A program made the translations under genes and the position numbers. DNA of 64,000 nt from Pseudooceanicola marinus (GTDB lineage: Bacteria; Pseudomonadota; Alphaproteobacteria; Rhodobacterales; Rhodobacteraceae). The notes under the pieces were generated by a model, which saw only the letters and a list, made by a program, of their open reading frames with translations, was not told the origin of the DNA and made no database searches. Every line of letters begins with the position of its first letter. Position 1 is the first letter of the stretch. Location: the NCBI RefSeq assembly GCF_002786295.1, contig NZ_PGTC01000018.1, positions 186,001 through 250,000 on the forward strand, written 5' to 3'. Below, piece after piece: positions 3,012-20,224 of the stretch.

Positions 3012-3038
3012 TGCAACGCCCTGGCCGGCCCCTGACAG

Positions 3039-3558: not shown

Positions 3559-3673
3559 CGGCACCCCCTGAAATGACGGGGGCAATCTCTAGGATCAAAG
3601 CGGGCGGTCCACAATGCTTGGCCCGCTCCGATAGACAGACCAGCGTCGCCCCGGAGGGCGGCAGCATCAGGCA

Positions 3674-4688: not shown

Positions 4689-4807
4689 GTGAATAGATTA
4701 ACGCGACAGTAATTTCTGGCTAGCGTCGAGGCCAAGCAGAAGAGGTGACTGCCCGCGACTGCACCGGGCTCTCGCACATCACCTCATGCGCCAGGAAAGG
4801 GGATCCG

Positions 4808-5608
4808 ATGAGTGCACCGGGAGGAACGGAGAGCGGCTCTGCGCCACAGAGCCAAGGCAACGGTACGGCCGAGCTCAGTCATTTCACCTTCATCGGCTCC
4901 GGCACGCTGTTTTCGGACGTGGTTCTGCGCACGATCGACACCGAGTTTGCCGGCATTTGCGCGACCAGATACCCGCAGCTCGCCACCTGGGCGCTGACGG
5001 TGCTGGATCACCCGACCGACCCGCCTCCGCCAACCCGTTTGCTGGTAGTGGATGAACGGCAGGTCGACGACCTGTTCCTGCTTCTCCGACGGCGCCCGAC
5101 TGAGATGGAGAACACCCGGCTGGCCCTGGCCGCGCGCACGTCCCTGGGGGCGGCCAAACTGGTGCGCAGCGACGGGCACAACCTGGTGCAGCACCACGTC
5201 AGCATCCTTCCGATGAACCTGCACCTGACGGCCTGGATCCAGCTGCTGCGCCTGCTGGACTGCGGCGAACACTACCTGCCGTCCTGCGCGTTCGACCTGA
5301 CGCCCCCCTATGCAGAGGGCGCGACGCCCCCGGACGCCGGGGGGGAGGGCGACTACACCCCGACCGAGGCCTTGACCGTCCTGACCCCACGAGAGCAGGA
5401 GGTTCTGCGCCTCGTGGCGGCGGGCCGGCCCAACAAGGTCATCGCCCGCGACCTGTCCGTGTCGGCCCATACGGTGAAATTGCACATCCACCGGATCATG
5501 GGCAAGCTGGGGGTCAGCAACCGCACCGAAGCGGCGATACTCTTCCTGCACGAGGGCGCCGGTGACGGCCACGCCTCGGCACAGGCGCCCTCCCCCTCCA
5601 ACAGCTGA
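4808..5608 (+). CDS. LuxR/CsgD-type transcriptional regulator
   Basis: A 266-residue protein with a C-terminal LuxR-type helix-turn-helix (about residues 194-250, LTPREQEVLRLVAAGRPNKV, then TVKLHIHRIMGKLG). The N-terminal 180 residues resemble the degenerate receiver-type domain of CsgD/VpsT proteins more than an acyl-homoserine-lactone-binding domain; no clear phosphoacceptor Asp pocket is visible. Starting at 4808 is supported by AAAGGGG upstream; a longer version from 4745 has none. CsgD-type regulators govern matrix production, suggestive given the secreted low-complexity proteins and polysaccharide operon just downstream, but that link is inference. Confidence 0.8.
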   Translation: MSAPGGTESGSAPQSQGNGTAELSHFTFIGSGTLFSDVVLRTIDTEFAGICATRYPQLATWALTVLDHPTDPPPPTRLLVVDERQVDDLFLLLRRRPTEMENTRLALAARTSLGAAKLVRSDGHNLVQHHVSILPMNLHLTAWIQLLRLLDCGEHYLPSCAFDLTPPYAEGATPPDAGGEGDYTPTEALTVLTPREQEVLRLVAAGRPNKVIARDLSVSAHTVKLHIHRIMGKLGVSNRTEAAILFLHEGAGDGHASAQAPSPSNS

Positions 5609-5819
5609 CGCCCCGCCGCGCGCCCTGCCCCGCAGGCCCTCGATTGCTGCCCCGCGGCGCGAGAAATGCGGCGGCGCGGCTCGGAAGCTGACCGGAATCC
5701 GTTCTGGCGCAAACGTCGAACTTCATGATTAGCTTCAACAATTGCTTGAGATCCGCGGGACACCCGAGGTCGGGAAAAGAAGCGTCCAGCGGGGACCGTA
5801 TCTTTTCCGGAGCTGTGAC

Positions 5820-6962
5820 ATGACAGGCTCGAAACCGATTACCATTCGTCAGTTGGAGGTGCTCGACGGGATCGCCACCGCCGGTTCAATCCGCAAGGCC
5901 GCCAAGCTTCTCGGGCTGACCCAGCCCACCATCTCCGCGCAGCTCGCCAAACTGGAAACCGCGCTCGGCTCCGAACTGGTCAGCCGCGACCAGGGGCATC
6001 CCGGTGTCCTGACCGGGGCCGGCGAGCTTTGGGCGCGCACCGCCAGCAGCGTGTTGACCGAACTGGAGGAAGGCCGGACACGCCACGGCGAGATCTTCGG
6101 CCATGAAGGCTACACGATGAGCTTCGCGACGATCCCCTCCCATGCCGGGCGGTCGCTGGGGATCGCGGCGGCGGTGGCGCGGGCCATCCCAGGCTTCTCC
6201 GAGGTCTCGGTCAGCCTCGCCCCGTCGAGTGCCGACCTGCTCGACTACCTCGCGATCCGCAAGGCCAGGATCGGCCTGCTGGCCATGACCGAGGAGCTGA
6301 GGCAGACGCGCTCGCTCATGTCAGAAGAGATCTACATGGATCAGATCGTCTGGGCGGTGCCACGCTCGATCGACCCAGGGCTGGTGCGCGCGGTGCTGTC
6401 AGGCGATGCCGGGGCGCGGGACCTGCCGCCGGCGTTGCAAAAACGTGTCGTGGTGCGGGCCCCGCACGAATGGTCCGACGTCGGCGCCAACTGGTACAGG
6501 ACCCGGCTACCCGATGCCGCGCCCTCCTATGTCAGCGACCTACACGTCGGCGCGGTCGAGATCGTCGCCGCGGGGCTGGCCACCTGCCATGTCTCGATGA
6601 CCCTGCGGGCCAACCTGCCGGAACGGATCCACGACACCGTCGCCTTCTATGAGACCGGCCTGACCTCCCAGGCGATGGTCGTGGTCATGCCGCGCCACCT
6701 GATGGCCGTCCCCTCCTTCGCGCGCTACTTCCGCAACCTGTCCGCCGCCCTCCGGGATCACTACGCCCGGGCCCTGTCACCTGCGGCCCTGCGGCCCGAT
6801 GCGATCGCGCGTTTCATGCGCCATCGCGCCGGCGAAACCGGCGTGATGACCCTGGAAAAAGTCCTGCCCCGGTCGGGACATCCGGGGCAGGACCGATGCA
6901 GTGATGGGGGGACGATCACTGCATCTTCGAGCGACAGTAGTCAGCCACCTGTTCATCGTTGA
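5820..6962 (+). CDS. LysR-type transcriptional regulator with unusual C-terminal tail
   Basis: A 380-residue protein with an N-terminal winged HTH (about residues 8-68; SIRKAAKLLGLTQPTISAQL) and a substrate-binding-type effector domain to about residue 300. The start at 5820 follows CGGAGC at a 6-base gap. The last 35 or so residues are low-complexity (DGGTITASSSDSSQP) and are encoded across two perfect hairpins and into the 3' end of the convergent gene (47-bp overlap), so they may be a stop-codon loss rather than functional protein. Target genes cannot be told; neither neighbour is divergent. Confidence 0.8.
   Translation: MTGSKPITIRQLEVLDGIATAGSIRKAAKLLGLTQPTISAQLAKLETALGSELVSRDQGHPGVLTGAGELWARTASSVLTELEEGRTRHGEIFGHEGYTMSFATIPSHAGRSLGIAAAVARAIPGFSEVSVSLAPSSADLLDYLAIRKARIGLLAMTEELRQTRSLMSEEIYMDQIVWAVPRSIDPGLVRAVLSGDAGARDLPPALQKRVVVRAPHEWSDVGANWYRTRLPDAAPSYVSDLHVGAVEIVAAGLATCHVSMTLRANLPERIHDTVAFYETGLTSQAMVVVMPRHLMAVPSFARYFRNLSAALRDHYARALSPAALRPDAIARFMRHRAGETGVMTLEKVLPRSGHPGQDRCSDGGTITASSSDSSQPPVHR
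6861..6893. terminator. Perfect 12-bp hairpin between convergent genes
   Basis: GTCCTGCCCCGG (6861-6872) and its exact reverse complement (6882-6893) flank a 9-base loop. It lies beyond the stop of the minus-strand gene (6916) and inside the tail of the LysR reading frame. Probable terminator for the minus strand, perhaps bidirectional. Confidence 0.6.
6895..6925. terminator. Perfect 11-bp hairpin overlapping the stop codon of the secreted protein gene
   Basis: GATGCAGTGAT (6895-6905) and ATCACTGCATC (6915-6925) pair exactly around a 9-base loop. The minus-strand stop codon lies within one arm. It stands one base from the preceding hairpin, giving a tandem pair. Confidence 0.5.
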
Positions 6963-7638
6963 ACGGGGTGCCGCGCTGCTTCCGCGCAAGGATCACCCCG
7001 TCATCACGACGAGAGCACGTCACATAGCTCGACAGCGGGCGCGGCGCCTGAGTGGTGGCGCTTTGCGGCGTTGTGGTGGCCGCGAATGACGCGCGCTGTA
7101 CCTGGGCCGCCTGCCGCCGCTCGTTGGCGGTACAAACACTGCTGGGCGGGAGGGTGCCGACCTGCCGCAGGGCCTGGCAGGCCTCGGAATCACGCCGCGC
7201 GATCATGATGAGCGCCGCCTGGCCCTGGCCCATCTGCGCCAGCAGGCAGGCCTCGTCCACGCGGGAGTTGCCCCCGGCCGCCCCGCCGCCGATCAGCGAG
7301 ATGCCGACGCTGGAGGACAGCGAACAGGGATGCCCCGAGCCCATAGAGGGCGGCTGAACGGCCGGCGCGTTGCGCACGGTGTAGGACCCGCCGTAGCGAT
7401 GATTGGTGGTGATCTCCCCCGGGGTCCGCTGATCGAGGTAGATCTGGGCGTTGGAATGGCCGCCCGCGGCCGAGGACGTCGAGCTGGTCGACACCTGGGC
7501 GGAGCTGGACGAGCTGGAGCTCGAACCGCTGCTGGCGCTCTGGCCGGCGGCGGTCGTGGCCAGCATGGCCGAGACGCAGATGGCGCCGGCAGCGTTGACC
7601 AGCAACTTGGCGGGTGCTTTCTGGATATCATTGAACAT
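6916..7638 (-). CDS. Secreted Ser-rich protein of unknown function, 240 aa
   Basis: A 240-residue exported protein with a signal peptide (about residues 1-32, hydrophobic core AAGAICVSAMLATTAAG). A Ser-rich low-complexity segment follows (residues about 34-57), then a domain with several Cys (HPCSLSSS, DEACLLAQ, SEACQALRQ, SSVCTANE, VTCSRRDD, ADYCRSKM) that could form disulfides in the periplasm. GGAGGA precedes the ATG by 7 bases. It lies immediately downstream of another secreted Gly/Ser-rich gene on the same strand (115-base gap), likely co-transcribed. Function unknown; surface or matrix protein by inference. Confidence 0.75.
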   Translation of the reverse strand: MFNDIQKAPAKLLVNAAGAICVSAMLATTAAGQSASSGSSSSSSSSAQVSTSSTSSAAGGHSNAQIYLDQRTPGEITTNHRYGGSYTVRNAPAVQPPSMGSGHPCSLSSSVGISLIGGGAAGGNSRVDEACLLAQMGQGQAALIMIARRDSEACQALRQVGTLPPSSVCTANERRQAAQVQRASFAATTTPQSATTQAPRPLSSYVTCSRRDDGVILARKQRGTPFNDEQVADYCRSKMQ

Positions 7639-7753
7639 GGGTTTCTCCTCCCCGAACGCAGAGGTCTAGGTTGAGGCCGGAGCAGTACGTTCGGATAGCT
7701 GCTCCGGCCAGCCCGACCCGATGGGACACGGGACCGGGCTTTGGCATCAGGTC

Positions 7754-8146
7754 CTAGAACATGATGCCAAGGCCGCCGAAGGCGCCGCTGCTGCTGCCGT
7801 TGCCGACGGTGTAGCCGCCGGTGGCCCCTGCCGCGCCGAAGCCTAAGACGCCGGCGGTCGAGGTGTTCTCGACCCCGCCGACCGTGGCGGTCGAGGACGA
7901 CGAGCCGGAAATCGCGCCGCCCGGTCCGAGAACCGTGTAGCCTTCCGCGGTGCCGGCGCTGGCCAGTTCCATCGAGGTGCTGTTGGTCGCCCCGGCGAGA
8001 CCACCGAAGGTCCCCGCGCCCGAACCACCCGAGGCGATCACCCCGCTTTCGGAGCCCGACCAGGACCCGGTGCCCAGCACGACCTGTGCCGAGGCGCTAC
8101 CCCCGGCCAGGGCGGCGGCAGATGCCAAAATAACGAAAAGTCTCAT
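7754..8146 (-). CDS. Secreted Gly/Ser-rich low-complexity protein, 130 aa
   Basis: A 130-residue protein with a clear signal peptide (MRLFVILASAAALAGGSASA) and a mature part made almost wholly of Gly, Ser, Ala, Thr and Val, with loose repeats around VLG-G, SGSSSS, GGYTVG and GAFGGLG. The composition recalls extracellular fibre or matrix proteins; there is no recognisable curlin repeat. AGGAGGAATTGAA directly precedes the ATG, an excellent ribosome site. It heads a two-gene unit with the Ser-rich secreted protein downstream. Function unknown. Confidence 0.7.
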   Translation of the reverse strand: MRLFVILASAAALAGGSASAQVVLGTGSWSGSESGVIASGGSGAGTFGGLAGATNSTSMELASAGTAEGYTVLGPGGAISGSSSSTATVGGVENTSTAGVLGFGAAGATGGYTVGNGSSSGAFGGLGIMF

Positions 8147-8671
8147 TTCAATTCCTCCTGCTGGTTTCACTTTCGCCCGACCGGCGTCACCGTCGGCCGA
8201 GCCGTCGAGTTGAGGTCTAAGCCTCCCAATCAACTTACTTTTCCGGACCAATCGCCAGCAATTGACGTGACGGGCATCGCCCGTTTCGGGGAGGCTGGGA
8301 TGGGGCATTGCCCGAAGGGTGTAGCCCGATGGGGTGGCGCCTCACCCGGGCGGTCTACCCGAGGCCGGGGCGCGGCACCTCCTCCCTGCCCGGATGGGTC
8401 AGGACAGCGCCAACGCACCGCTTCGGGGTCCCTCTCGCGACTCAGCGGAAGGCGCCAGGGCGCCACGGCGCGCGGCCAGAACCCTCCTCGCAGCCTCGCG
8501 GCGGACATCGGGTCGGAAAACGACGGCCCCTTGCCATTGAAAGAGCAGAATTAACCGGCGCCCGGGTCCAAAAATCGCCATCTTCTGACACAATAGTGAG
8601 CACCAGTTCAGAGAGTTCGCGGCGGCCCCTTGGTCGCCTGTTTTCGACCCAGAGTGAGGCCAGTGCGCAGA
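8147..8671. other. 525-base divergent intergenic region
   Basis: This separates the minus-strand secreted-protein genes from the nine-gene regulatory/polysaccharide operon on the plus strand and must hold promoters for both. A locally AT-rich patch (about 8515-8610, including TTGCCATTGAAAGAGCAG and CTTCTGACACAATAG) is the likeliest promoter zone for the operon, but no confident -35/-10 pair was found. No gene is supported here. Confidence 0.4.
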
Positions 8672-9895
8672 ATGCCATTGACCATGACCGATCCGATCCT
8701 GGTTCCGCCGCTGAAAGTGGTGGTCGCAGATGATGATGCCCTGCAGCGCGCCCATGCCTCCGCGCTGCTGCGCAAGCTGGGTTATGACCCCTACGAGGCC
8801 GAGGATGGCGCGGCGGCGCTGGATCTGGTGCGCCAGCTGGGCGCGCGAATCCTGCTGTGCGATCTCAACATGCCCGGCCTGGACGGGCACGAGCTGGCCC
8901 GCAGCGTGCGCGAGGACAAGGCCGATCACTACGTGCACATCATCATGGTCACCAGCCAGAGCCAGAGCGCGGAGCGCGAACGAGCGCTGGAGGCCGGGGT
9001 GGACGATTTCATGGCCAAGCCGCTGGACCGCGCCAGCCTGACCGCACGCATCCGCTCGGCCGACCGCCTGCTGCGCCACGAGATGCTGCTGGCCGAACGC
9101 AATCGCGTGCTGGCCGAGGCCAAGGAGCAGATCGAAGCGGACCTGCGGGCCGCCGCGACAGCGCAACGCCGCATGTTGCCCGAGCCCGAAGCGCGCGTCG
9201 GCGACTGCAGCTTCCATTCCGCCTTCATGCCCTCGAACATCCTGTCAGGCGACATGTTCGCCTATTACCAGGTCGCGCCGGGCTACATCGGGTTCTATAC
9301 CATCGACGTGGCCGGCCATGGCGTGCACGCCTCGCTGCTGTCCGTGGCCCTGGGGCACCTGCTGACCGCGGAATACTTCCGCCGCCGGGCCTTCGACGAC
9401 ACCGGCGCGCCGGATCCCGCGGCCCTGGTGGCGACGCTGAACGAACGCTTTTTCCGTCAGGACAGCACCGAGTATTTCACCATGTTCTGTGGTATCCTCG
9501 AACAACAGAGCGGCCGGCTACACTACTGTCAGGCCGGGGCCCCCTCCCCGGTCGCGATCGGCCCGACCGGCGTGACCCGCCAGATCGGCGACGGCGGCTT
9601 CCCTGTCGCGCTGCTGGACATGGTCACCTTCGAGAACCGGTGTGACCAGCTCGACAGCGGAGAAACCCTGGTCGTCTATTCCGACGGCGCCACCGAGGCC
9701 GAAAGCCTGACCGGCGAGGGCTTTGGCGAGGCCCGATTCCGGGCGGTGCTGGAAGAGGCCGCGCCCCGGCCCGACACCATCCCCGGCAAGATGGTCGAGG
9801 CCCTGACCCGCTGGCGCAACGGCCGCACCCTGCAAGACGATCTGACCATCCTCGTGTGCGAAAGGACCCAACAAAATGATCAAGTTTCACGGTGA
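8672..9895 (+). CDS. Response regulator with PP2C-type (RsbU/SpoIIE) phosphatase output
   Basis: A 407-residue protein with an N-terminal receiver domain (residues about 10-130; acidic pair VVADDD, phosphoacceptor D64 in LLCDLNMPGLDG, conserved K in MAKPL). A short coiled linker (about 133-165) and a SpoIIE-family PP2C phosphatase domain (about 175-400; D212 in IDVAGHGVHASL, YSDGATEAE, QDDLTILV) follow. In partner-switching systems such a phosphatase dephosphorylates the STAS antagonist. It is first of nine overlapping genes; its end overlaps the STAS gene by 20 bases. The start at 8672 is chosen after GAGTGAGGCC; an ATG at 8684 is possible. Confidence 0.9.
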   Translation: MPLTMTDPILVPPLKVVVADDDALQRAHASALLRKLGYDPYEAEDGAAALDLVRQLGARILLCDLNMPGLDGHELARSVREDKADHYVHIIMVTSQSQSAERERALEAGVDDFMAKPLDRASLTARIRSADRLLRHEMLLAERNRVLAEAKEQIEADLRAAATAQRRMLPEPEARVGDCSFHSAFMPSNILSGDMFAYYQVAPGYIGFYTIDVAGHGVHASLLSVALGHLLTAEYFRRRAFDDTGAPDPAALVATLNERFFRQDSTEYFTMFCGILEQQSGRLHYCQAGAPSPVAIGPTGVTRQIGDGGFPVALLDMVTFENRCDQLDSGETLVVYSDGATEAESLTGEGFGEARFRAVLEEAAPRPDTIPGKMVEALTRWRNGRTLQDDLTILVCERTQQNDQVSR

Positions 9896-10223
9896 TGCCG
9901 CGGACGGCCTTGGCATCGTCGAGCCCGGCACCGACCGGCTGACCGCCGCCAACGCCACCTCGTTCAAGGACGACGTTCTGGGCCTGATCGACGCGGGCAC
10001 CAGCCGCCTCGTCATCGACCTCAGCAAGGTCGACTTCGTCGATTCCTCCGGCATCGGGGCGCTGGTCGGCCTGCTGAAGCGGATCGGCCACCGCGGCGAA
10101 ATCGTCGTCTCCGGCCTGTCGGACAATGTCAGCCAGATGTTCCGCATCACCCGGATGGACCGTGTCTTTTCCAGCTACGACACCGCCGAGGCGGCGTTGC
10201 GGGCGCTGAGAGAAAACGCCTAG
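9876..10223 (+). CDS. STAS-domain anti-anti-sigma factor (RsbV-like)
   Basis: A 115-residue single STAS domain. The phosphorylatable site is visible as VDFVDSSGIGALVG with S57 after D56, and the C-terminal FRITRMDRVF helix is typical of RsbV/SpoIIAA proteins. When unphosphorylated, such proteins bind the RsbW-type kinase and free its partner. The gene overlaps the phosphatase gene by 20 bases and its stop shares a base with the GTG start of the kinase gene, so the three partners are made in coupled amounts. Confidence 0.92.
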   Translation: MIKFHGDAADGLGIVEPGTDRLTAANATSFKDDVLGLIDAGTSRLVIDLSKVDFVDSSGIGALVGLLKRIGHRGEIVVSGLSDNVSQMFRITRMDRVFSSYDTAEAALRALRENA

Positions 10224-10657
10224 TGCCGCTTCTGTCGCTGGAGATGCGCCCGGAGTTGTCCGAGGTGGACATGGTCGTGACCTCCCTGAAGGAGGCCGCG
10301 GGCAAGGCGCTGTCAGAGATGAAGCTGGCCACCTTCGAGATCGCCCTGTCGGAGGCGTTGACCAATGCGGTGCGTCACGGCCTAGCGTCGTCGGAGGGCA
10401 GCGTGGCGCCCGATCAGCCGATCAAGGTCACACTCTCGGACAGTCCGCGCGGGTTGCTGATCGAAATCATTGACGCGGGCACACAGGGCCCCGAGGATCT
10501 TTACGAGGATTTAGCCAGCCCCGATGCGATCGACCTGATGGCCGAGAGCGGCCGTGGCCTGTCGCTGATCCGGCATTGCGTCGATGACCTGACCTTCGAG
10601 CCCGCCCCCGGTCACAACCGGCTGGAACTTCTCTTTCACCCGGACCTCGAAACATGA
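10223..10657 (+). CDS. Anti-sigma factor serine kinase (RsbW-like, HATPase_c_2)
   Basis: A 144-residue GHKL ATPase of the RsbW/SpoIIAB type: N-box in EIALSEALTNAVRHG (about residues 38-52), a G1-like loop around IEIIDAG, and a G2-like GRGLSLIRHCVD near residue 110. These kinases phosphorylate the STAS antagonist and hold a sigma factor or other target. Translation starts at GTG in TAGTG, sharing a base with the previous stop. No sigma factor gene lies in the operon, so its client is unknown; it could be encoded elsewhere or be a non-sigma target. Confidence 0.88.
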   Translation: MPLLSLEMRPELSEVDMVVTSLKEAAGKALSEMKLATFEIALSEALTNAVRHGLASSEGSVAPDQPIKVTLSDSPRGLLIEIIDAGTQGPEDLYEDLASPDAIDLMAESGRGLSLIRHCVDDLTFEPAPGHNRLELLFHPDLET

Positions 10658-13224
10658 TGAGCCTGCTGATCGAACCCGGATACCCCGTTGCCCTCCTGTC
10701 GGTGGTGCTGGCGATTGTTGCGCTGGTGCTGCAGGGCTATGCCTACCGCGCCCGCGGTCGGCGGTTGGCGCAGGTCGCCCAGGATCTGCAGGAAGCTCAG
10801 CGGATCGCCCGTATCGGGACGGTCCGCTGGGATTTCGTCCGCGACGAGGTGGTATGGAGCGACGAATACGCCCGTCTTCTCGGGCTGGAACCCGGCGGGA
10901 AGATGACCGGCACGCAGTTCGCCGGCATGCTGCTGCCGGAATACGTCGACCGGGTGGTGTCCAGTGAGGAACGCGCGCTGCAGGTCTCAGCCGAAACCGG
11001 AAAGCCCGCGCGGCGGGAAATCGTCTATCGCGTGAAAAGCCACGACGGTCGGATCATGGACGTCTCTGCCCTGTCCGAACTGAAAGCCGATCGCGAGGGA
11101 CGGCCGCTCTACATGATCTCGACCATCCGCGACGTGACCGAAGAGATGGAACGACAGGCCGAGCTGCGCACGAGCGAGAGCAATCTGGCGGGCGCGCTGC
11201 GCGTGGCCGACCTCAGTTGGATGCGCAAGACCCTGAAGGACGGCAAGATCACGTGGTCGGACAGCCTTTATGCGCTGACCGGGCGCGACCCGGCGCAGGG
11301 GCCGGTGTCGCTGTCGACCCTGATCCGTCCCGAGGATCTGCCCGCCTACCGTGCCGCGCTGAACAAGATGCGCGCCGCCGAGACCGCCCAGGATCCCAAT
11401 CACAACCGCCTGTCCCTGCGCCTGACCCGCAGCAACGGCGAAGAAATCCACGCCCGGATCGAGCTGGAGGTCACCCATGATGCCGATGGTCGACCCGACA
11501 CCCTGTCGGGCGTGATCCGCGACGTCACCGAAGACGTGAAACGCGAGGCGGAGTTGCATGACGCGGTGGCCGCCGCCGAACATGCCAATGCCTCCAAGAG
11601 CGAGTTCCTGGCCGTCATCAGCCACGAGCTGCGCACGCCGATGAACGGGGTGCTGGGCATGCTGGGCGCGCTGAACGATACCAAGCTGGACGATGCGCAG
11701 CGTGAACAGGTGCAGATCGCGCGCAACTCCGCCAACTCCCTGCTGGTGATCCTCAACGACATTCTGGACGCCTCGAAGATCGAGGCGGGCCGCCTGCAGA
11801 TCGAAGAGGAGTCATTCGAGCTGAACAGCATGGTGCGCAGCGTGATCCACCTCTACGCGCAGCGCGCGTCGGAGAAGCAGATCGTGCTGGACAGCCGGAT
11901 CGACGCGGACATCCCGCCCTGGATCCGCGCCGACAGCGGACGGATCCGCCAGATCCTGTCGAACCTCGTCAGCAACGCCATCAAGTTCACCGACAGCGGC
12001 CATGTGATGCTTTACGTCTCGGCCCTGCCGCAGACGGACAGCGCACCGCTGCGGCTGCGCTTCCGGGTCGAGGACACGGGCGCCGGCATCCCGCAGGAAT
12101 ACCATTCCCGCGTCTTCGGACGTTTCGAACAGCTGGGCGCCTCGGGCAACAATCGCCGCATGGGCACCGGGCTGGGTCTGTCGATCAGCCAGAGTCTGGC
12201 CGAACTGATGTCCGGCACGATGGGCTTCGACAGCGCCGAGGGCGAAGGCTCATCCTTCTGGCTGGACCTGCCGGTCGAGCCGGCCGAGAATGCCCTGGAA
12301 CGCGGCCCCGAAGAGCCCCCGGCCGAGGGGCTGGACGTGCCGCGCATGCGGATCCTCGTGGCAGAGGACAACAGCACCAACCAGCTGGTCGCCCGCTCCA
12401 TGCTTGAACGCCTCGGGCAGAACGTAGACCTGGTGGTCAACGGCGCCGAAGCCGTCGAGGCGGTGCAGAAATTCGACTACGATCTGGTGCTGATGGACGT
12501 GTCGATGCCGGTGATGGACGGCCCCACCGCCACGCAACGCATCCGCGCCCTGCCCACCGATGTCAGCGCCATCCCGATCCTGGCGCTGACCGCCCACGCC
12601 GGCAACGATCAGGTCAGTTTCTACCTCAAGGCCGGTTTCAACGAGGTGTTGACCAAGCCGATCCTGAAGCATGAGCTGGAGCGCGCCCTGGACCGCTGGA
12701 AGCAGTTCGCACTGCAGAAAAGCGGCGCAGAGGACGGGATCGAGCTGCCTTCGGCGGACGAGGAAGCCGTCACGACGAAATCGTTGGGGCGGGCGCGCAG
12801 CGCGGCGGACGACGCCGGCGGGACGCCAATCGCGGGCCAGGTGTCGGAGTTCTGCGATGCCGAGGCATTGAACGAGAAACTGCTCGAGATGGACCGCGAT
12901 TTCGGCGCCGACACCGTGAAGGGCATCCTGAAGGCCACCGTCTCGGACCTGACGCGCCATATTTCCACGCTGGAGGCGCAGCAGAGCGCCGAGGGCGAGG
13001 CGCGCGACGATGTCCTGCTGTACCGCTCCTTCCATTCGCTGGTCGGGATCGCCTCCACCCTCGGTTGCGGAAAGATGACCAACCACTGCCGCCTTCTGGA
13101 AACGCTGCCCGACGCCCGTGCCGATGCGCCCGATCTGGTGCAGTCCCTGATCGACCAGGTCCGCCTGATGCGCGACGAGGTCGCCGACCTCGCCGAAGAG
13201 AAAAGGAACTCGAAATGCGCCTGA
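10654..13224 (+). CDS. Hybrid sensor histidine kinase (TM-PAS-PAS-HisKA-HATPase-REC-HPt)
   Basis: An 856-residue protein with one N-terminal membrane segment (about 9-28), two PAS domains (about 45-165 and 180-300; WDFVRDEVVWSDEYARLLGL, then WSDSLYALTGRDP), HisKA with H324 in SHELRTPMNGVLG, and a HATPase domain (NLVSNAIKF, DTGAGIP, GTGLGLSIS). A receiver with D615 in LMDVSMPVMDG and a C-terminal HPt domain with H794 in YRSFHSLVGIAS complete it. Phosphate could pass H324-D615-H794 and on to the receiver of the PP2C phosphatase encoded three genes upstream, a natural but unproven link. The start overlaps the RsbW-like stop (ATGATG). Confidence 0.93.
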   Translation: MMSLLIEPGYPVALLSVVLAIVALVLQGYAYRARGRRLAQVAQDLQEAQRIARIGTVRWDFVRDEVVWSDEYARLLGLEPGGKMTGTQFAGMLLPEYVDRVVSSEERALQVSAETGKPARREIVYRVKSHDGRIMDVSALSELKADREGRPLYMISTIRDVTEEMERQAELRTSESNLAGALRVADLSWMRKTLKDGKITWSDSLYALTGRDPAQGPVSLSTLIRPEDLPAYRAALNKMRAAETAQDPNHNRLSLRLTRSNGEEIHARIELEVTHDADGRPDTLSGVIRDVTEDVKREAELHDAVAAAEHANASKSEFLAVISHELRTPMNGVLGMLGALNDTKLDDAQREQVQIARNSANSLLVILNDILDASKIEAGRLQIEEESFELNSMVRSVIHLYAQRASEKQIVLDSRIDADIPPWIRADSGRIRQILSNLVSNAIKFTDSGHVMLYVSALPQTDSAPLRLRFRVEDTGAGIPQEYHSRVFGRFEQLGASGNNRRMGTGLGLSISQSLAELMSGTMGFDSAEGEGSSFWLDLPVEPAENALERGPEEPPAEGLDVPRMRILVAEDNSTNQLVARSMLERLGQNVDLVVNGAEAVEAVQKFDYDLVLMDVSMPVMDGPTATQRIRALPTDVSAIPILALTAHAGNDQVSFYLKAGFNEVLTKPILKHELERALDRWKQFALQKSGAEDGIELPSADEEAVTTKSLGRARSAADDAGGTPIAGQVSEFCDAEALNEKLLEMDRDFGADTVKGILKATVSDLTRHISTLEAQQSAEGEARDDVLLYRSFHSLVGIASTLGCGKMTNHCRLLETLPDARADAPDLVQSLIDQVRLMRDEVADLAEEKRNSKCA

Positions 13225-14870
13225 CGCGTCCCTCCACGCGCCCGATGCGTCCTCTGCTGACCCTGGCCTGCGCCACGCTGGGACTGGGCGCCAGCCCCGC
13301 CCCAGCGCAGGAAAGCGGCACCACCCTGCCCCAGAGCCTGGCCCCGCTGGCCTCTGCCGAGGCTCCTTCGGAGCCGGTCGAGACGCATCCCCGCCCCTTC
13401 GGTCGCCATGGCGAACTGACCGAACGCGAGATGGAGATGGCGCGCACCGCCTGGTCCTATTTCGTCGAACGCTACCAGCCGGAAACCGGGCTGGTGAATG
13501 CCGTCGGCTCCTACCCGTCGACGACGCTGTGGGACACCGCCTCCTACATCAGCGGCCTGGTCGCGGCCTATGAGCTGGGCATCATCGACAAGCGCACCTT
13601 CGACACCCGCGCGACCAAGCTGATCCGCACCCTGCGCAACCTCGACCTGTTCCGTGGCGAGGCGCCCAACAAGGTCTACAACACCCAGACCGGCGAGAAG
13701 GTGAACTATGCCAACCAGCCCGGCGAGATCGGCTATTCCGTGCTCGACATGGGCCGCATGCTGGTCTGGCTGCGGATCCTGAAGGAACGCTATCCCTACC
13801 TGGCCAACGGCGTCGACAACGTGCCGATACGCTGGAACTACTGTAATATCGTCAACGATGACGGGCGGCTCTTCGGCTCTCTCGTGCGGGGAGATGGCGA
13901 GACGCGCTACGTGCAGGAAGGCCGGCTGGGCTACGAGGAATATGCCGCCAAGGGCTTCGCGCTCTGGGGCTTCGACGTCACCGCGGCGCTGGATCCGCAG
14001 CCGCTGAACTACACCCGCATCTACGACATCGACATTCCCTACGACGGTCGCGACCCGCGCGTCTTCCACAACCAGAACTACGTGCTGACCGAAAGCTACC
14101 TGCTGGACGGCCTGGAACTGGGCTGGGATCTGCCGGTGTCCGATCCCGCCGGAGCGGGCAATGCCAGCCACGGCTGGCGTGCCGAGTTCGCGCATCGCAT
14201 CTTCGAGGTGCAGAAGCGCCGGTTCGAGGCGACGGGCGTGATCACCGCACGCTCCGAACACCAGGTCGATGGGCAGCCATACTTCGTCTACGATAGCATC
14301 TTTGCCGACGGCTATGCCTGGAACACTCTGGACCCGTCGGACACCTACCAGCCGGACCGCGCCGCGGTCGCCGCCAAGGCGGCCATCGGCATGTGGGCGC
14401 TCTGGGAAGACGACTATACCGACCTGCTGTTCGAAACCGTGGCCGACCTGTCGGAGGCCGAGGGCGGCTTCTACGAAGGGCTCTACGAGAACGGCAACGG
14501 CTTCATTCCGCTACAGACCGCCAACAACAACGGCATCATCCTGGCCGCTCTCCTTTACAAGGCGCAGGGGCCGGTGTTGCAGTTTACCAATGACAACACC
14601 AGCTACTGGGACACAGCCTGGGCCGGCACCGACATCCGGGCCAACAAGTGCCTGCCGGAAACCCAGGTGGTCGAGCTGACCTGCTGTGCCTGCGAGGACC
14701 TGCCGCAGCCGAAACCCGCCGTCACCGCCGAGGAGTTCCTGTTCTGCCGACCCGTCAACGGCCCCTACGGCCTGGGCGCCACCGACTGCGGCACGACGGA
14801 ACAGAGCTTTGCCAAGCCCGAACCGCGCTACGTCCTGCCGCAGGCGTGTCGCGTGCCCTGGGGGCAATGA
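13215..14870 (+). CDS. Exported DUF3131 protein with Cys-rich tail
   Basis: A 551-residue exported protein: signal peptide (about residues 1-31, RPLLTLACATLGLGASPAPAQ), then a DUF3131 domain (about 75-450; WSYFVERYQPETGLVNAVGS, PNKVYNTQTGEKVNYAN, GYEEYAAKGFALWGFD). DUF3131 is predicted to be an all-helical toroid like glycoside hydrolases of the glycoamylase kind, but its activity is not established. The last roughly 80 residues hold seven Cys (KCLPE, TCCAC and others), unlike its paralogue at 17891-19270. AAAAGGAACTCGAA precedes the ATG, which lies 10 bases inside the kinase gene. Likely periplasmic processing of the polysaccharide made by this operon. Confidence 0.88.
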   Translation: MRLTRPSTRPMRPLLTLACATLGLGASPAPAQESGTTLPQSLAPLASAEAPSEPVETHPRPFGRHGELTEREMEMARTAWSYFVERYQPETGLVNAVGSYPSTTLWDTASYISGLVAAYELGIIDKRTFDTRATKLIRTLRNLDLFRGEAPNKVYNTQTGEKVNYANQPGEIGYSVLDMGRMLVWLRILKERYPYLANGVDNVPIRWNYCNIVNDDGRLFGSLVRGDGETRYVQEGRLGYEEYAAKGFALWGFDVTAALDPQPLNYTRIYDIDIPYDGRDPRVFHNQNYVLTESYLLDGLELGWDLPVSDPAGAGNASHGWRAEFAHRIFEVQKRRFEATGVITARSEHQVDGQPYFVYDSIFADGYAWNTLDPSDTYQPDRAAVAAKAAIGMWALWEDDYTDLLFETVADLSEAEGGFYEGLYENGNGFIPLQTANNNGIILAALLYKAQGPVLQFTNDNTSYWDTAWAGTDIRANKCLPETQVVELTCCACEDLPQPKPAVTAEEFLFCRPVNGPYGLGATDCGTTEQSFAKPEPRYVLPQACRVPWGQ

Positions 14871-16030
14871 TGAGCAGCGCGAGCGGCAAACCGAGACTTC
14901 TGTGGTTCGACGCCAACCGTGTCTGCGCGGCGATCGGCGTGGTGCTGATCCATTCGACCACCGACTTCAGCGGGCAACCCTTCCCCGACGCCTCCGTGGC
15001 GGAACGGGCAGTGCCGGTCTTCCTGCGCTCGCTCGGGGAATTCTCCGGCTCGGAGATGTTCTTCTTCTTCTCGCTGTTCCTGATGGCCATGCGGGTGGAC
15101 CGGCACCGCCCGCCCTACCGGCAGGCGATCATGACCCAGGCCGAACGGCTGCTGGTGCCTTTTGTCTTCTGGACGTTCTTCTATGCCGCCTTCCGGTTGG
15201 TGAAGGCCTATGCCTTCAACTACGAGGACTGGTATCTCGACCAGCTGAGCCAGACGCGGGTCTGGGTCTCCTTCTTCCTGCTGGGCAAGTCGCAGTACCA
15301 CATGCACTTCCTGCCCACGCTCTTCGCCATCTTCCTGTTCTTCCCGGTGATGCGACTGGCCTGGCGCTATCCGCTTATGGGCGTGCTGCTGTTTGCGACC
15401 CTGGGCGCCATGGACCACGTGCAAAGCTGGCTATGGTCGCTCGATCTCACGTCGCTGACCCGCGAATACCTGGTGCGCATCACCAAGGTCTGGGGCTACG
15501 TCGGCTACGGCTTTGCCGCCTTCGCGCTCTATTCTCTATGGAGCGACGGGATCCCGCGCGGCGAGTCAAAACTGATCCGGCGCGGTGCGCTCTACTTCGC
15601 CTCGATGGCCTATATCGCCACCCTGCCCTTCTTCGGCACCGCCCTCTTCGAGGGGCATTGGGGGATCCGCACCGGCTGGGACTACTACGGCCACTTCCTG
15701 ATGCCGATCTTCATGTTCGCGCTGTTCATGGGCGGGCAGTTCGCCGACTGGTCGCCGCGCTGGTCGCATCTGGCGAAATACACCTTCGGCGTCTACCTGG
15801 TGCACCCGGCGGTGATCGACCTGTTCGACATCGCCGTGGCGAAGACCGGGCTGGCCGACCTGCTGACGCCCACGCTGCTGGTGCTGCTGCGCTATGCCGT
15901 GGCCCTGCCCTGCGCCTTCGGTCTGGCCATGGCGCTCGAAAAGACGCGACTGCTGGCCTGGACCATCGGCCTCGGCCCCGCGCCCTGGAAATGGTCGCGC
16001 AAGCGCGGCACCGCGGAAACGAAGGGCTGA
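14867..16030 (+). CDS. Acyltransferase 3 family membrane protein
   Basis: A 387-residue integral membrane protein with about ten segments, typical of the acyltransferase 3 (OafA/NodX-type) family. The N-terminal WFDANRVCAAIGVVLIHSTTDF carries the Arg and His usually needed for catalysis. Such enzymes add O-acetyl or other acyl groups to polysaccharides while still at the membrane. It starts in an ATGA overlap with the DUF3131 gene and lies 4 bases before the GT2 gene, so it probably modifies the glycan made by that synthase. Confidence 0.88.
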   Translation: MMSSASGKPRLLWFDANRVCAAIGVVLIHSTTDFSGQPFPDASVAERAVPVFLRSLGEFSGSEMFFFFSLFLMAMRVDRHRPPYRQAIMTQAERLLVPFVFWTFFYAAFRLVKAYAFNYEDWYLDQLSQTRVWVSFFLLGKSQYHMHFLPTLFAIFLFFPVMRLAWRYPLMGVLLFATLGAMDHVQSWLWSLDLTSLTREYLVRITKVWGYVGYGFAAFALYSLWSDGIPRGESKLIRRGALYFASMAYIATLPFFGTALFEGHWGIRTGWDYYGHFLMPIFMFALFMGGQFADWSPRWSHLAKYTFGVYLVHPAVIDLFDIAVAKTGLADLLTPTLLVLLRYAVALPCAFGLAMALEKTRLLAWTIGLGPAPWKWSRKRGTAETKG

Positions 16031-16034
16031 GCTG

Positions 16035-17894
16035 ATGGACGATTATTTCCGCGCCTTCGAGGACCGGCGCCCGCCAGAGCCGCTGCCCTATTCCCCCGCG
16101 CGGGAAATGCTGTGGCAGTTCCTGGCGACCCTCGCCCTGGTCGTCGGCGGCTGGTACATCTGGTGGCGCTGGACCAGCTCGCTGAACCCCGACGCGATGT
16201 GGTTCGCCATCCCGCTTGTGCTGGCCGAAACCTTCGCCTACGTCGGGCTGATCCTCTTCGTCTACAACCTCTGGCGCGACCAGCCGATCGAGATCCGCGA
16301 TCCCCCCGCCACCCTGGGCGACATCGACCCGACCTCGCCCGAGGGCGACCGGCCCCTGACCATCGACATCCTCTTTGCCACCTACAACGAGGAACCGGAG
16401 CTGGTCCGGCTGGGCATTCTGGACTCCAAGGCCCTGAACTACCCGCACGAGATCGAGGTGAAGATCCACGTCCTCGACGACGGCAAGCGCGCCAACATGC
16501 GTCGCGTGGCCGAGGAAGAGGGCGTCGGCTACATCACCCGCGAGACGAACGAGGGCTTCAAGGCCGGCAACCTGCGCAACGCGATGGAGCAGACCTCGGG
16601 CGACCTGATCGTCATCTGCGACGCCGACACCCGCCCCTTCCCGACGCTGCTGGAACGCACGCTGGGCTATTTCCGCGACCCCAAGATGGCCTGGGTGCAG
16701 ACCCCGCAGTGGTTCTACGATCTGCCGGCGGGTGAGCGGCTGCATGACGTGATGCACCGCCGACTGGGCCTGCTGGGGCGCTGGACGGGGCGCGCGGTCG
16801 AGGGCGTGCTGGGTGAGATCCGCCTGGGCGAGGATCCTTTCGTCAACGACCCCAAGATGTTCTACGACATCATCCAGCGCCGCCGGAACCACGCCAACGC
16901 GTCCTTCTGCTGTGGCGCCGGGTCGATCCACCGCCGCGAAGCGGTGCTGGAAGCCTCGCTGCGCAGCTTCGGCGCCAGTGTCGAACGCCGGGTGATCGCC
17001 GCCGAGGAGGAGATCACCCTGGAAAGCCGCGAAAACCGCGTCTCCCCCGAGTTGTTGGAGGCGCTGCGCACCGCCGCCGTCACCGAGGAAGTGCTGACCC
17101 CCTACAAGTTCCACGTCTCCGAGGACATCTATACCTCCATCGTGCTGCATTCGGACCGTGAGCGGGAATGGAAATCCTACCAGCACCCCTACGTCGAAAG
17201 TAAGATGCTGTCGCCGCAGGACCTGCTGACCTGGACCATCCAGCGCTACAAATACGCCGGCGGCAGCCTGGACATCCTGTTCCATGACAACCCTCTGTTC
17301 CGAAAGGGACTGACCTTCGCCCAGCGGATGATGTACGGGGCGACGTTCTACAGCTACCTGGGCTCGATCTGGAACGTGATCTTCCTCTTTGCGCCCATCG
17401 TCTATCTGTTCACCGGCATCGCGCCGGTGTCAGCCTATTCCAACGATTTCTTCGCCCATGTGATCCCCTTCCTGGTGACGCTGGAACTGGCGATGATGGT
17501 GGGCACCTGGGGCATTGCGGGCTATGCGGCCAAGGCCAGCTACCTGTCCTTCTTCCCCCTGGGGCTGAAAGCGATCTGGACCGTCCTGCGGGGCGAGAAG
17601 ATCTCCTTCACCGTGACGCCCAAGGACCGCAACGCCGACACCTTCCTGCGGCTGGTGAAACCTCAGATCGCCGTGCTGGCGCTCACCGCCCTTGGCGGCC
17701 TCTGGGGCCTCGGCGCGCTGTGGCTGGGCGGCACCCAGCACAGCCTGACCGGCGTCGTGACCAACTGCCTCTGGGGTCTGAACAACTGCGTCGCCATGTG
17801 GGGCATGATCGCCGCTGCCCTCTGGCAGCCGCCCGAAACCCCCGCCGACACCGCCGAGCCCCCCCTGATGAAAGCCGAGGAGACCCCGACGTGA
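16035..17894 (+). CDS. Cellulose synthase-like processive glycosyltransferase, GT2
   Basis: A 619-residue inner-membrane synthase. Two N-terminal membrane segments (about 27-46, 55-78) precede a GT2 domain with the BcsA-type residues: D148/D149 in HVLDDGKRANM, DAD at 196-198, SED at 362-364 in place of TED, and QRYKY at 403-407 in place of QxxRW. Four or more membrane segments follow (about 440-600). No PilZ domain is seen, so direct c-di-GMP control as in BcsA is not expected. About 110 residues (235-350) between DAD and SED are longer than usual. It should polymerise a UDP-sugar and export the glycan; the sugar is unknown. Confidence 0.9.
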   Translation: MDDYFRAFEDRRPPEPLPYSPAREMLWQFLATLALVVGGWYIWWRWTSSLNPDAMWFAIPLVLAETFAYVGLILFVYNLWRDQPIEIRDPPATLGDIDPTSPEGDRPLTIDILFATYNEEPELVRLGILDSKALNYPHEIEVKIHVLDDGKRANMRRVAEEEGVGYITRETNEGFKAGNLRNAMEQTSGDLIVICDADTRPFPTLLERTLGYFRDPKMAWVQTPQWFYDLPAGERLHDVMHRRLGLLGRWTGRAVEGVLGEIRLGEDPFVNDPKMFYDIIQRRRNHANASFCCGAGSIHRREAVLEASLRSFGASVERRVIAAEEEITLESRENRVSPELLEALRTAAVTEEVLTPYKFHVSEDIYTSIVLHSDREREWKSYQHPYVESKMLSPQDLLTWTIQRYKYAGGSLDILFHDNPLFRKGLTFAQRMMYGATFYSYLGSIWNVIFLFAPIVYLFTGIAPVSAYSNDFFAHVIPFLVTLELAMMVGTWGIAGYAAKASYLSFFPLGLKAIWTVLRGEKISFTVTPKDRNADTFLRLVKPQIAVLALTALGGLWGLGALWLGGTQHSLTGVVTNCLWGLNNCVAMWGMIAAALWQPPETPADTAEPPLMKAEETPT

Positions 17895-19270
17895 GCTTCC
17901 GCCAGAATCTGACCCGCGCCCGCGGCCATATCGTTTTTCTCGTCGCCCTCGTCTGCGGCCTCATTCTGGTGCTGCAGCTTGAAAAGCTCGGCGAGCCACC
18001 TGCGACAAATGCCGTTGAGAGCGACGGCGCTGACACCGTCGCCGCCGCGCCCGAGATCGCCGCCCCCCTGCCCGAGGACCCGATGCAGCCCTTCGAAGAC
18101 CTGGAGCCCCTGCCCCTGCGCGACCCCGCGCCCCTGTCGGAGACCGACGAGGAGTATGCCCGCATCGCCTGGAGCTATTTCCGCAACAACACCAACGAGG
18201 AAACCGGGCTGGTCAACTCGGTCGACAACTACCCCTCGACCACCATGTGGGAGACCGGCTCCTATCTCGTCGCGGTGCTATCGGCCGAGCGGCTGGACCT
18301 CATCTCCGCCGAGGAGGCGCACAACCGCATTGCCCGCGTCCTCGACAGCCTGGCATCGCTGCGGCTCTTCGACGACACCCTGCCCAACAAGGCCTACCAC
18401 GCCCGCACGCTGGAACTGGTGAACTACGCGAACGAACCCGTGGAACTGGGCCTGGGCTGGTCCGCGCTGGACATCGCGCGGGTCGTCGCGACCTTGGGCC
18501 TGGTGGAACGCAATCACCCAGAGCTGTCGGGGGCGGTCGAGGCGCTGATCGACACCTGGGCGCTGGAGCGGATGGTCGAGGATGGCGAACTGATCGGCAT
18601 GAACGTGGTCGAGGGCACGCCGCGCCCCAACCAGGAAGGCCGCGTCGGCTATGAACAATATGCCGCCAAGGGCATGATGCTCTTCGGGTTCGACACGTAC
18701 CGCGCCTATGACGTGCGTCCGCAGTTGATGGTGCAGGAGGTGCTGGGCCAGCCCATTCCGGTGGACACCCGGCTGCACCGCGCCACCACGCCCGCCTTCG
18801 TGGTCAGCGAACCCTACCTTTTCGACGGGCTGGAGTTCGGCTTTGACGCGCGCTCGCACCGTTTCGCCTCGGCGATCTACCGGGCGCAGGAAGCGCGCCA
18901 TGCCGAAACCGGCCAGTTCACTGCCGTCACCGAAAGCCACCTGAACGAGGCCCCCTATTTCGCCTATTCCACCGTCTGGGGCGGGGGCGCACCCTGGGCC
19001 GTGCTGACCTTCCAGGGGGAGCGGATCGACAGCAAGCGCACCGTGGCGACCAAGGCCGCCTTCGGCTGGGATGCCCTTTTCGGGACCGAATACACCGCCG
19101 CGCTGGTGGCCGAGATCGCCGAGACCGCCCAGGCCGGCAAGGGCTGGCCCGAGGGGATCTATGAACAGACCGGCGAGGTGAACACCTCCACCACCACCAA
19201 CACCAACGCGGTGGTTCTGGCCGCGCTGTCGTTCAAGGCCACCGGCCCCCTGATGCGGGACCCTGAATGA
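17891..19270 (+). CDS. Membrane-anchored DUF3131 protein (paralogue)
   Basis: A 459-residue protein with one N-terminal membrane anchor (about residues 13-32, HIVFLVALVCGLILVLQL), a Pro/Glu-rich linker, and a DUF3131 domain (about 85-450; WSYFRNNTNEETGLVNSVDN, PNKAYHARTLELVNYANEP, GYEQYAAKGMMLFGFD). It parallels the 13215-14870 product but lacks the Cys-rich tail. The GTG start lies in a GTGA overlap with the synthase stop. Two diverged copies flanking the acyltransferase and synthase suggest two steps on the same glycan, perhaps cleavage or transfer in the periplasm; this is inference. Confidence 0.88.
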   Translation: MSFRQNLTRARGHIVFLVALVCGLILVLQLEKLGEPPATNAVESDGADTVAAAPEIAAPLPEDPMQPFEDLEPLPLRDPAPLSETDEEYARIAWSYFRNNTNEETGLVNSVDNYPSTTMWETGSYLVAVLSAERLDLISAEEAHNRIARVLDSLASLRLFDDTLPNKAYHARTLELVNYANEPVELGLGWSALDIARVVATLGLVERNHPELSGAVEALIDTWALERMVEDGELIGMNVVEGTPRPNQEGRVGYEQYAAKGMMLFGFDTYRAYDVRPQLMVQEVLGQPIPVDTRLHRATTPAFVVSEPYLFDGLEFGFDARSHRFASAIYRAQEARHAETGQFTAVTESHLNEAPYFAYSTVWGGGAPWAVLTFQGERIDSKRTVATKAAFGWDALFGTEYTAALVAEIAETAQAGKGWPEGIYEQTGEVNTSTTTNTNAVVLAALSFKATGPLMRDPE

Positions 19271-20169
19271 CCCTGTGCCGCTTCGTCTCCGCCCGTTTCT
19301 CCACGCTTGTCGCCCTGTCGCTTCTGCCCACCACCGGGATGGCCCAGCCATGTGTCGGCCCGGCCTTCGACCAGCCCCTGCCCGGGGCCGAGAACGTGCA
19401 GCGCCGCTACGCCGACGTGCCCTCGGCGCGCTATCCCGGGATCTGGCAGGAGGGCCGCGTCGCCGGGTTCACCTACCGGCTGTTCATGGACCTCACGGCC
19501 GAGGTGAACGACGGCTCTACCAACCCTGCCTGGCAGGTCTACCTGACCTGTGATCCCGCCTCCGGCCTCTGCGACGAGAGCTTCGACGGGCTGGCGCCGA
19601 TCGCCGCCTCGCGCACCGCGCAGGTGCTGGGCCGCTGCCTGCTGGGCGGGCTGGTCACGGCGGAGGATTTCGCCCCATCCGAAAATGCGCGCCCCGCCAC
19701 CGGCCTGCCGCCCGGCGCCGGCGTCTCCTCCGACGCGGATCGGCCGGAGAACCCGGCCGCCGGCCTGGCCGCCGCAGCCGCGCTGGAGGGGCTGCGCAAC
19801 CCCGACAACACGGCCGCGCCGGTGATCCCCGAGGTCCCGGAGGATGACCGACCCCTAGCCTTCGGCGAAACCGAGGCCCCCGCACGACCGCAACAGGACA
19901 CGGTCCGGCTGGGACCGAACCTGCTGCCTTCGGGACAGTGCGGGCTGTCGGCGATCGACGAGGGCAGTTCACCGGTCATGACGCTGCAACGACTCTTGCA
20001 GGAGGGCGACTTCGCCCCCGGCGCGGCAGACGGGATGATGGGGCCGAGAACCCGGCAGGCCCTGCAGCGCGCCCTGGGAGACAGCGCCACCGGGCTGACG
20101 GTCACCGAGGCGATTGCCGCGCTCGACCGTGCGCTTTGCGCCGAGATCGAGAACGCGGCGACGGAGTGA
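19267..20169 (+). CDS. Exported protein with peptidoglycan-binding-like domain
   Basis: A 300-residue exported protein: signal peptide (about residues 1-26, FSTLVALSLLPTTGMAQ), a domain with paired Cys (LTCDPASGLCDES), a Pro/Ala-rich linker, and a C-terminal domain resembling PG_binding_1 (about 225-290; VMTLQRLLQEGDFAPGAADG then MMGPRTRQALQRAL). It may anchor the complex or its product to the wall. It starts in an ATGA overlap with the previous gene and is last of the nine-gene operon, followed by a strong terminator. Confidence 0.8.
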   Translation: MTLCRFVSARFSTLVALSLLPTTGMAQPCVGPAFDQPLPGAENVQRRYADVPSARYPGIWQEGRVAGFTYRLFMDLTAEVNDGSTNPAWQVYLTCDPASGLCDESFDGLAPIAASRTAQVLGRCLLGGLVTAEDFAPSENARPATGLPPGAGVSSDADRPENPAAGLAAAAALEGLRNPDNTAAPVIPEVPEDDRPLAFGETEAPARPQQDTVRLGPNLLPSGQCGLSAIDEGSSPVMTLQRLLQEGDFAPGAADGMMGPRTRQALQRALGDSATGLTVTEAIAALDRALCAEIENAATE

Positions 20170-20196: not shown

Positions 20197-20224
20197 AAGG
20201 CGGGGTCCGACACGGCCCCGCCTT
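20197..20224. terminator. Bidirectional intrinsic terminator
   Basis: AAGGCGGGG (20197-20205) pairs with CCCCGCCTT (20216-20224) around a 10-base loop. The plus strand continues CTTCTTTG and the minus strand TTTTTCAT, so it serves both the nine-gene operon and the convergent TRAP operon. Confidence 0.85.

Follow-up and report, generated by a model that had tools for sequence, protein, structure and literature searches.

A partner-switching module encoded with a BcsA-like polysaccharide synthase in Pseudooceanicola marinus and in related loci

In the syp locus of Vibrio fischeri, the SypA/SypE partner switch acts below transcription (PMC10120452) and the unphosphorylated STAS protein is the downstream output, with a target given as unknown (PMC10120452, PMC8256260). 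The HmpU/V/W switch of Nostoc punctiforme belongs to a locus for hormogonium motility and polysaccharide, and its STAS protein is proposed to be active when dephosphorylated, again with a target reported as unknown (PMC8256260). In Rhodobacter capsulatus, RbaV/W/Y governs gene transfer agent production, with the STAS protein as the determinant regulator and no sigma factor found (PMC3999984), while the SiaABC(D) and HsbR/HsbA switches of Pseudomonas phosphorylate a STAS-like protein and thereby steer biofilm formation (PMC7647112, PMC6482189). A 2026 study of Klebsiella pneumoniae lists, as block 3b, a cellulose synthase, three DUF3131 proteins, OpgC, a hybrid kinase and an anti-sigma factor with its antagonist (PMC12974863). 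The present study concerns nine genes at positions 8672-20169 of a 64,000-nucleotide stretch of the Pseudooceanicola marinus genome (assembly GCF_002786295.1, contig NZ_PGTC01000018.1, positions 186,001 to 250,000 of the forward strand; hereafter the window), in which a PP2C phosphatase, a STAS protein and an RsbW-type kinase are encoded together with a BcsA-like family 2 glycosyltransferase (GT2), an acyltransferase 3 (AT3) and two DUF3131 proteins. With a probability that we put at roughly 0.6, this is a dedicated partner switch that sets the output of a BcsA-like glucose-polymer synthase, with STAS as an output acting post-transcriptionally.

Synthase loci were collected by DUF3131 or by GT2, the switch genes playing no part in the choice, and purpose-built profiles served to map them. 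The sources were an order sample (292 genomes) and a phylum sample (398 genomes) for DUF3131, and an 84,980-species collection and plasmids for GT2. This provided 89 GT2 loci after removal of copies (the species collection contributed 55, the order sample 21, the phylum sample eight and plasmids five), 72 of which have at least 4.5 kb on either side; the other 17 are shorter on a side and were left out. At least one of PP2C, STAS and RsbW was detected in 70 of the 72 loci and all three in 57, counts in which related genomes are non-independent and some rows are near copies. In the order sample alone every locus had at least one switch gene (21/21). By comparison, the same profiles and threshold found switch genes in 0/12 other DUF3131 stretches and in 0/20 cellulose (BcsB) stretches. 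Given these figures, and with the link kept through 25 core gene orders, chance neighbourhood was rejected. A reading of the window made beforehand from its sequence only (the sequence-only reading) had taken the switch and synthase halves for one operon, and their rarely being neighbours in other genomes as a point that would tell against it; the two halves are frequent rather than rare neighbours, and well beyond Rhodobacterales, the named loci spanning alpha-, beta- and gammaproteobacteria. The closest named GT2 in the species scan was that of Pseudooceanicola marinus (98% identical).

The composition of the samples was as follows. DUF3131 matches occurred in 61 order-sample genomes, 32 of which were taken in addition to the window (20 with full-length stand-alone forms and 12 controls), and the remaining 28, with weak, partial or long forms, were left out. 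The controls comprised 11 long forms and G289, a short DUF3131 whose stretch holds no GT2 or switch gene. The BcsB control covered 20 of the 30 order-sample BcsB genomes, a few of which had a short flank on one side, and the plasmid sample five of the 17 records with a GT2. Three phylum-sample contigs (G370, G482 and G532) were too short to judge. Loci L078, L079 and L088, whose contigs equal those of L045, L047 and L048 in length, are copies of these and were excluded from locus counts and kept in residue counts. One contig (L091) bears a Mycobacterium label that may be wrong; on the GT2 tree its synthase falls with that of an uncultured proteobacterium.

Gene order varies considerably around the retained link. 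DUF3131 is present in 88/89 loci, and 55/89 encode an acyltransferase of the AT3 or OpgC type. Across the 72 loci the six core families show 25 orders, and the 57 loci that have PP2C, STAS and RsbW together show 18; these core orders were counted instead of the 43 full gene strings, whose differences stem in part from accessory labels and from the length of the stretch. The window order, PP2C-STAS-RsbW-DUF3131-AT3-GT2-DUF3131, is common to 28/72 loci. Other arrangements include PP2C-STAS-nucleotidyltransferase-RsbW-GT2-DUF3131x3 in Vibrio (L189), DUF3131x2-GH3-PP2C-STAS-RsbW-AT3-GT2 in Azotobacter (L101), and RsbW-STAS-PP2C-OpgC divergent from GT2-DUF3131x3-globin-kinase-GH2 in Pantoea. Three related Rhodobacterales genomes have the system split over two places, each mixing switch and synthesis genes (PP2C with GT2-DUF3131-HPt in L053/L054/L059, and AT3-STAS-RsbW-DUF3131 in L056/L058/L060). 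Such mixing, together with the persistence of the link through rearrangement, argues against the idea that a mobile polysaccharide island acquired an unrelated regulator and then spread, which we hold to be highly improbable even with the GT2 found on 17 plasmid records. The recurring pairing suggests direct control of polymer production by the switch. In beta- and gammaproteobacterial loci, a protein with some 300 residues and no Pfam match recurs near PP2C, STAS or OpgC (L190:9592-10491, L096:7897-8994 and others).

The window locus consists of nine uninterrupted plus-strand frames that overlap or, between AT3 and GT2 only, are separated by 4 nt, as had been claimed from the sequence. Domains were called with Pfam and NCBIfam, and start codons were picked among candidates (ATG 13215 for DUF3131 protein 1, ATG 16035 for GT2). 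The features are:

8672..9895, plus strand: REC-PP2C (SpoIIE-type) phosphatase (Pfam SpoIIE 115.9 bits, Response_reg 86 bits)
9876..10223, plus strand: STAS protein, RsbV-like, candidate phosphosite Ser57 (Pfam STAS 65.2 bits; TIGR00377 above cut-off)
10223..10657, plus strand: RsbW-type HATPase_c_2 serine kinase with N-box Glu44 and Asn48 (Pfam 59.1 bits)
10654..13224, plus strand: hybrid histidine kinase, PAS-PAS-HisKA(His324)-HATPase-REC(Asp615)-HPt(His794), with one transmembrane-like segment (Pfam; HPt just under cut-off)
13215..14870, plus strand: DUF3131 protein 1 (PF11329, 406 bits)
14867..16030, plus strand: acyltransferase 3, membrane protein (PF01757, 84 bits)
16035..17894, plus strand: BcsA-like processive GT2 without PilZ (Pfam; PDB BcsA sequences, 5.5e-39)
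17891..19270, plus strand: DUF3131 protein 2, N-terminal transmembrane-like segment at 12-30 (PF11329, 420 bits)
19267..20169, plus strand: gene 9, weak PG_binding_3 match (21 bits, just under the cut-off of 24.6)
20197..20224, plus strand: terminator-like hairpin 3' of gene 9 (11 pairs, 8 GC, T-rich tail)

Successive genes overlap by 20 nt (PP2C/STAS), 1 nt (STAS/RsbW), 4 nt (RsbW/kinase), 10 nt (kinase/DUF3131) and 4 nt (DUF3131/AT3, GT2/DUF3131 and DUF3131/gene 9). This spacing suggests that the nine genes form one transcription unit. No sigma-70-like promoter was found in the operon region, and terminator-like hairpins in the region are at chance level (6 versus 5.2 in shuffles). Relatives of gene 9 are present in many of the Rhodobacterales loci. 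Upstream of the operon lie a LuxR-family regulator (4745-5608) and a LysR-type gene (5742-6962), and two minus-strand genes for Ser/Gly-rich, secreted-looking proteins without Pfam match adjoin it (6916-8308).

Based on motif residues, the partner switch looks intact, with phosphatase, STAS Ser and kinase boxes all present. The window PP2C has metal-site residues Asp194, Asp212, Asp338 and Asp389, and its REC domain Asp64; the latter and HPt His794 stand at the positions given in the sequence-only reading, whose domain assignments were likewise borne out by Pfam, weakly for gene 9 and HPt and with no PilZ match in GT2. Among 72 PP2C rows, which include the three copies and one unlinked paralogue, GD, D..GHG and the Asp of SDG are kept in 72/72 and DD in 70, with two gaps. 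The RsbW N-box Glu and Asn are found in 76/76 rows, and the first and second G of the G2 box in 72/76 and 76/76, respectively. The STAS phospho-Ser is kept in 77/78 aligned rows outside the fused branch described below, copies included, with one further row a gap. A REC domain was found in 62/72 PP2C frames (Asp in 59, Asn in two, a gap in one; Lys in 61/62). The ten PP2Cs without REC are those of L098 and L193, which have CHASE3 (2474-3997) and HAMP (9118-11076) by Pfam; L099 and L046, which resemble these types on inspection rather than by Pfam scan; L116-L118, which adjoin an H-NOX gene; L182, cut by the stretch end; and L112 and L125, which are unexplained. Two consecutive PP2C frames precede STAS-RsbW in one locus (L090:320-2627). 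The window genome seems to hold a second, Rba-like set elsewhere, with a second PP2C (C13:171035-171643) and, at another place, a second STAS-RsbW pair (C15:78224-78583), arranged like RbaY and RbaVW.

A candidate for the target of the switch comes from eight Rhodobacterales genomes (L034-L038, L040, L042 and L049), in which a frame of 489-613 codons upstream of the GT2 has an N-terminal STAS domain (46-84 bits). In 6/8 of these a nucleotidyltransferase of an NTP_transferase/sugar-1-phosphate type follows clearly behind STAS (193-228 bits). None of the eight stretches contains PP2C or RsbW, and the Ser equivalent to SypA Ser56 is changed in 8/8 rows. On a quick GT2 tree this fused branch groups with the three split-system genomes (SH-aLRT, an approximate likelihood-ratio support value, of 96), and because those have the whole switch, its loss in the fused branch is the simpler reading. 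In a further group (f38), STAS alone is kept near GT2; one member (L185) has Ala at the phosphosite, and the genome of one (G343) has no match to the PP2C or RsbW profile. As f38 is basal on the GT2 tree, the absence of PP2C and RsbW in it could be ancestral. A separate nucleotidyltransferase gene stands beside STAS in seven more loci (L098, L099, L112, L175, L177, L179 and L189), in six of them between STAS and RsbW. The persistence and fusion of STAS in loci that lack its kinase are indirect evidence, best accounted for if STAS is the acting part, and we infer an action of STAS itself on polymer synthesis. In one fused-branch locus, a 259-codon frame without Pfam match lies between the fusion and GT2 (L034:12732-13508).

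The retention and fusion of STAS where RsbW and PP2C are absent from the locus also speak against a classical anti-sigma switch, in which RsbW would hold an unlinked sigma factor that STAS frees to transcribe the operon, the linkage then reflecting autoregulation. The protein families are those of RsbV/RsbW, and the window genome has ten sigma70 region-2 hits, nine of them above the cut-off and all outside the operon locus. When these ten were used as phmmer queries, however, a sigma-like open reading frame was found in 0/118 stretches (controls and copies included), a search whose reach does not extend to an unlinked or highly divergent sigma factor, and the study of RbaVW, a related pair in Rhodobacter capsulatus, could identify no cognate sigma factor (PMC3999984). 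A sigma factor in the locus, as in the SigB/SigF-class switch, was rejected on the same search, and we consider control through an unlinked one unlikely.

The GT2 has the core of a processive synthase, with D148, DxD at 196/198, D364 of SED, QRYKY from Q403 and FTVTPK from F525, which correspond to the BcsA motifs D, DxD, ED, QxxRW (here QxxKY) and FxVTPK. In the alignment the Q, K and Y of QxxKY are found in 91/91 rows, and the D, DxD, ED and FxVTPK-like loop are kept. Cellulose synthase identity was rejected, as the GT2 failed the BcsA features tested: there is no PilZ match by Pfam, QRYKY stands in place of QxxRW, the NCBIfam CelA score is 233 bits against a cut-off of 699, and BcsB (PF03170) has no match in the window genome. 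The DUF3131 profile finds cyclic beta-1,2-glucan synthase chains at a distance (8wy1, 3.3e-8; 8rf9, 1.7e-4; 8rf0, 1.8e-4), with the best stretches lying in its first third (within positions 6-125 of 376), which makes a relation to the glucan-acting domain of these enzymes a possibility. GalU-type genes occur in seven loci, a count that has no background rate; of the five scanned, three are above and two below the NCBIfam cut-off. Together, the GalU neighbours, the BcsA-like GT2 and the distant match to cyclic glucan synthase suggest that the polymer is built of glucose, and it would probably be an acyl-bearing beta-glucan. OpgC-type proteins are found in corresponding loci of Serratia (L119, by Pfam) and Pantoea (L190, by annotation). 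Pfam identified GH2 in L095, L098 and L119, GH9 in L098 and GH3 in L101, and GH2-like frames are present in 12 loci in all. GH16 is annotated in Sphingobium and Paracoccus loci; the single-sequence search for it gave weak labels, with more than 60 bits in L096, L181, L191 and L193 only.

BcsA relatives are usually under cyclic di-GMP (c-di-GMP) control, and the switch might govern a diguanylate cyclase, with c-di-GMP acting on the synthase via a separate receptor. There is precedent in the SiaABC partner switch, which together with the cyclase SiaD controls biofilm (PMC7647112, PMC6482189), and a separate PilZ gene adjoins GT2 in Sphingobium, so that c-di-GMP control may operate within the family. 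The window GT2 itself lacks PilZ, from which the sequence-only reading supposed that the switch may replace c-di-GMP control, and the nine genes encode no diguanylate cyclase domain, other loci not having been searched for GGDEF genes. We regard control through a cyclase as quite unlikely for this system.

Many loci encode a kinase or an HPt. The HPt of the window kinase scores 23.3 bits (Pfam cut-off 24.6), and in four Paracoccus-type loci (L045, L051, L076 and L106) an HPt gene of 169-293 codons takes the place of the 856-residue hybrid kinase of the window, which makes HPt a recurrent input and supports the HPt relay of the sequence-only reading. H-NOX genes are found in 25/89 loci, with HNOB identified by Pfam in the three copies checked (L116, L117 and L192), and a genome-wide HNOB search recovers the copies of L047 and L048. 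The H-NOX heme motif YxSxR, together with a His 29 residues ahead, is kept in 24/27 copies, two duplicates being among the 27. The H-NOX gene lies within 1.2 kb of PP2C in 19/25 loci, with an adjacent kinase in 16 of those 19, positions which suggest that H-NOX feeds the switch. In L116-L118, H-NOX is beside the REC-less PP2C with no adjacent kinase, an arrangement in which gas might control the phosphatase directly. In the window genome a single H-NOX match was found, outside the operon locus. A globin is encoded in both Serratia loci and in the Pantoea locus. No paper treating H-NOX, STAS and SpoIIE together was found in the open-licence PMC literature, which excludes preprints and holds few subscription journals; DUF3131 is named there in three papers, one of them the Klebsiella study.

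In the mechanism that we propose, a sensor (the PAS hybrid kinase in the window; H-NOX with a kinase, or HPt, in relatives) would pass phosphate via HPt to the PP2C, at its REC domain. Phosphorylation of STAS Ser57 by the RsbW-type kinase would hold STAS off, and the PP2C would strip this phosphate, leaving unphosphorylated STAS as the output. Rather than freeing a sigma factor, STAS would most likely bind the synthesis machinery after transcription, either a sugar-nucleotide enzyme or GT2. A more specific version is offered tentatively: STAS could be a regulatory subunit of sugar-nucleotide or polymer synthesis that, when dephosphorylated, binds and activates a sugar-1-phosphate nucleotidyltransferase or GT2. 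A glucan synthase would then be gated by a gas or PAS sensor, with Ser phosphorylation instead of c-di-GMP and PilZ, and the STAS-enzyme fusion would be the same device locked on.

Several observations weigh against the proposed mechanism. The nucleotidyltransferase match in the fused branch is marginal in L049 and undetectable in L042, the nine window genes include no nucleotidyltransferase, and that enzyme may be present merely as part of the pathway. The residue after the changed phosphosite is still Ser in 5/8 fused-branch rows, allowing phosphorylation nearby, and the fused STAS domains are on long branches, which calls for caution over their loss of the switch. Moreover, 6/8 fused-branch genomes keep an unlinked PP2C (190-209 bits) and an RsbW-like protein (78-97 bits). 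These score like the second, Rba-like set of the window genome, and profile scores separate locus-type and unlinked PP2Cs poorly (194 for the locus copy of G272). Absence of any switch was shown for G005 and G056 only, genomes with no PP2C profile match and in which RsbW matches are weak, not exceeding 25.4 bits, and lie within frames of at least 435 codons. Two Serratia loci (L119 and L120), which contain OpgC, GT2, three DUF3131, globin, a hybrid kinase and GH2, have a synthase with no PP2C, STAS or RsbW detected within about 10 kb of GT2, and the Sphingobium locus has GT2 and switch without DUF3131.

The system is widespread and compact. If the proposed control is correct, a BcsA-like synthase without its own PilZ would be gated by Ser phosphorylation, and H-NOX heme proteins would be a candidate input that recurs. 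For STAS proteins of the output type, among them SypA and HmpV, the cited papers give the target as unknown (PMC10120452, PMC8256260), and the natural STAS-enzyme fusion names a candidate. The sequence-only reading could match the combination to no described system. For the gene set this no longer holds, as Klebsiella block 3b is, judging from its gene list rather than its DNA, very probably the same system; the population study lists the block in passing and, in the text available to us, describes no mechanism (PMC12974863).

Compared with other known systems, the operon resembles syp in having switch genes inside a polysaccharide locus (PMC10120452, PMC8256260). It differs in that SypE unites kinase, REC and PP2C in one protein, whereas the operon has no such single protein, its kinase, REC and PP2C being encoded by separate genes, with an HPt-bearing kinase, and in that its synthase is a BcsA-like GT2 with DUF3131. 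HmpU/V/W is cyanobacterial, and the account of it that we consulted mentions no GT2/DUF3131 operon (PMC8256260). RbaV/W/Y shares with the operon a Rhodobacterales set of STAS, HATPase and REC-PP2C, but rbaVW is a two-gene operon (PMC3999984). The Sia and Hsb outputs, as described, are a diguanylate cyclase (SiaD) or sigma/anti-sigma factors with no linked synthase, unlike the operon (PMC7647112, PMC6482189). The GT2 core is that of BcsA, with the D, DxD and ED motifs and an FxVTPK-like loop, and is distinguished from it by the lack of PilZ, by QxxKY instead of QxxRW and by the lack of a BcsB match in the genome. Because defining features of both Syp and BcsA failed, the window system is set apart from membership in either, and we would place it as a form of partner switching for which STAS output has precedent in SypA, HmpV and RbaV.

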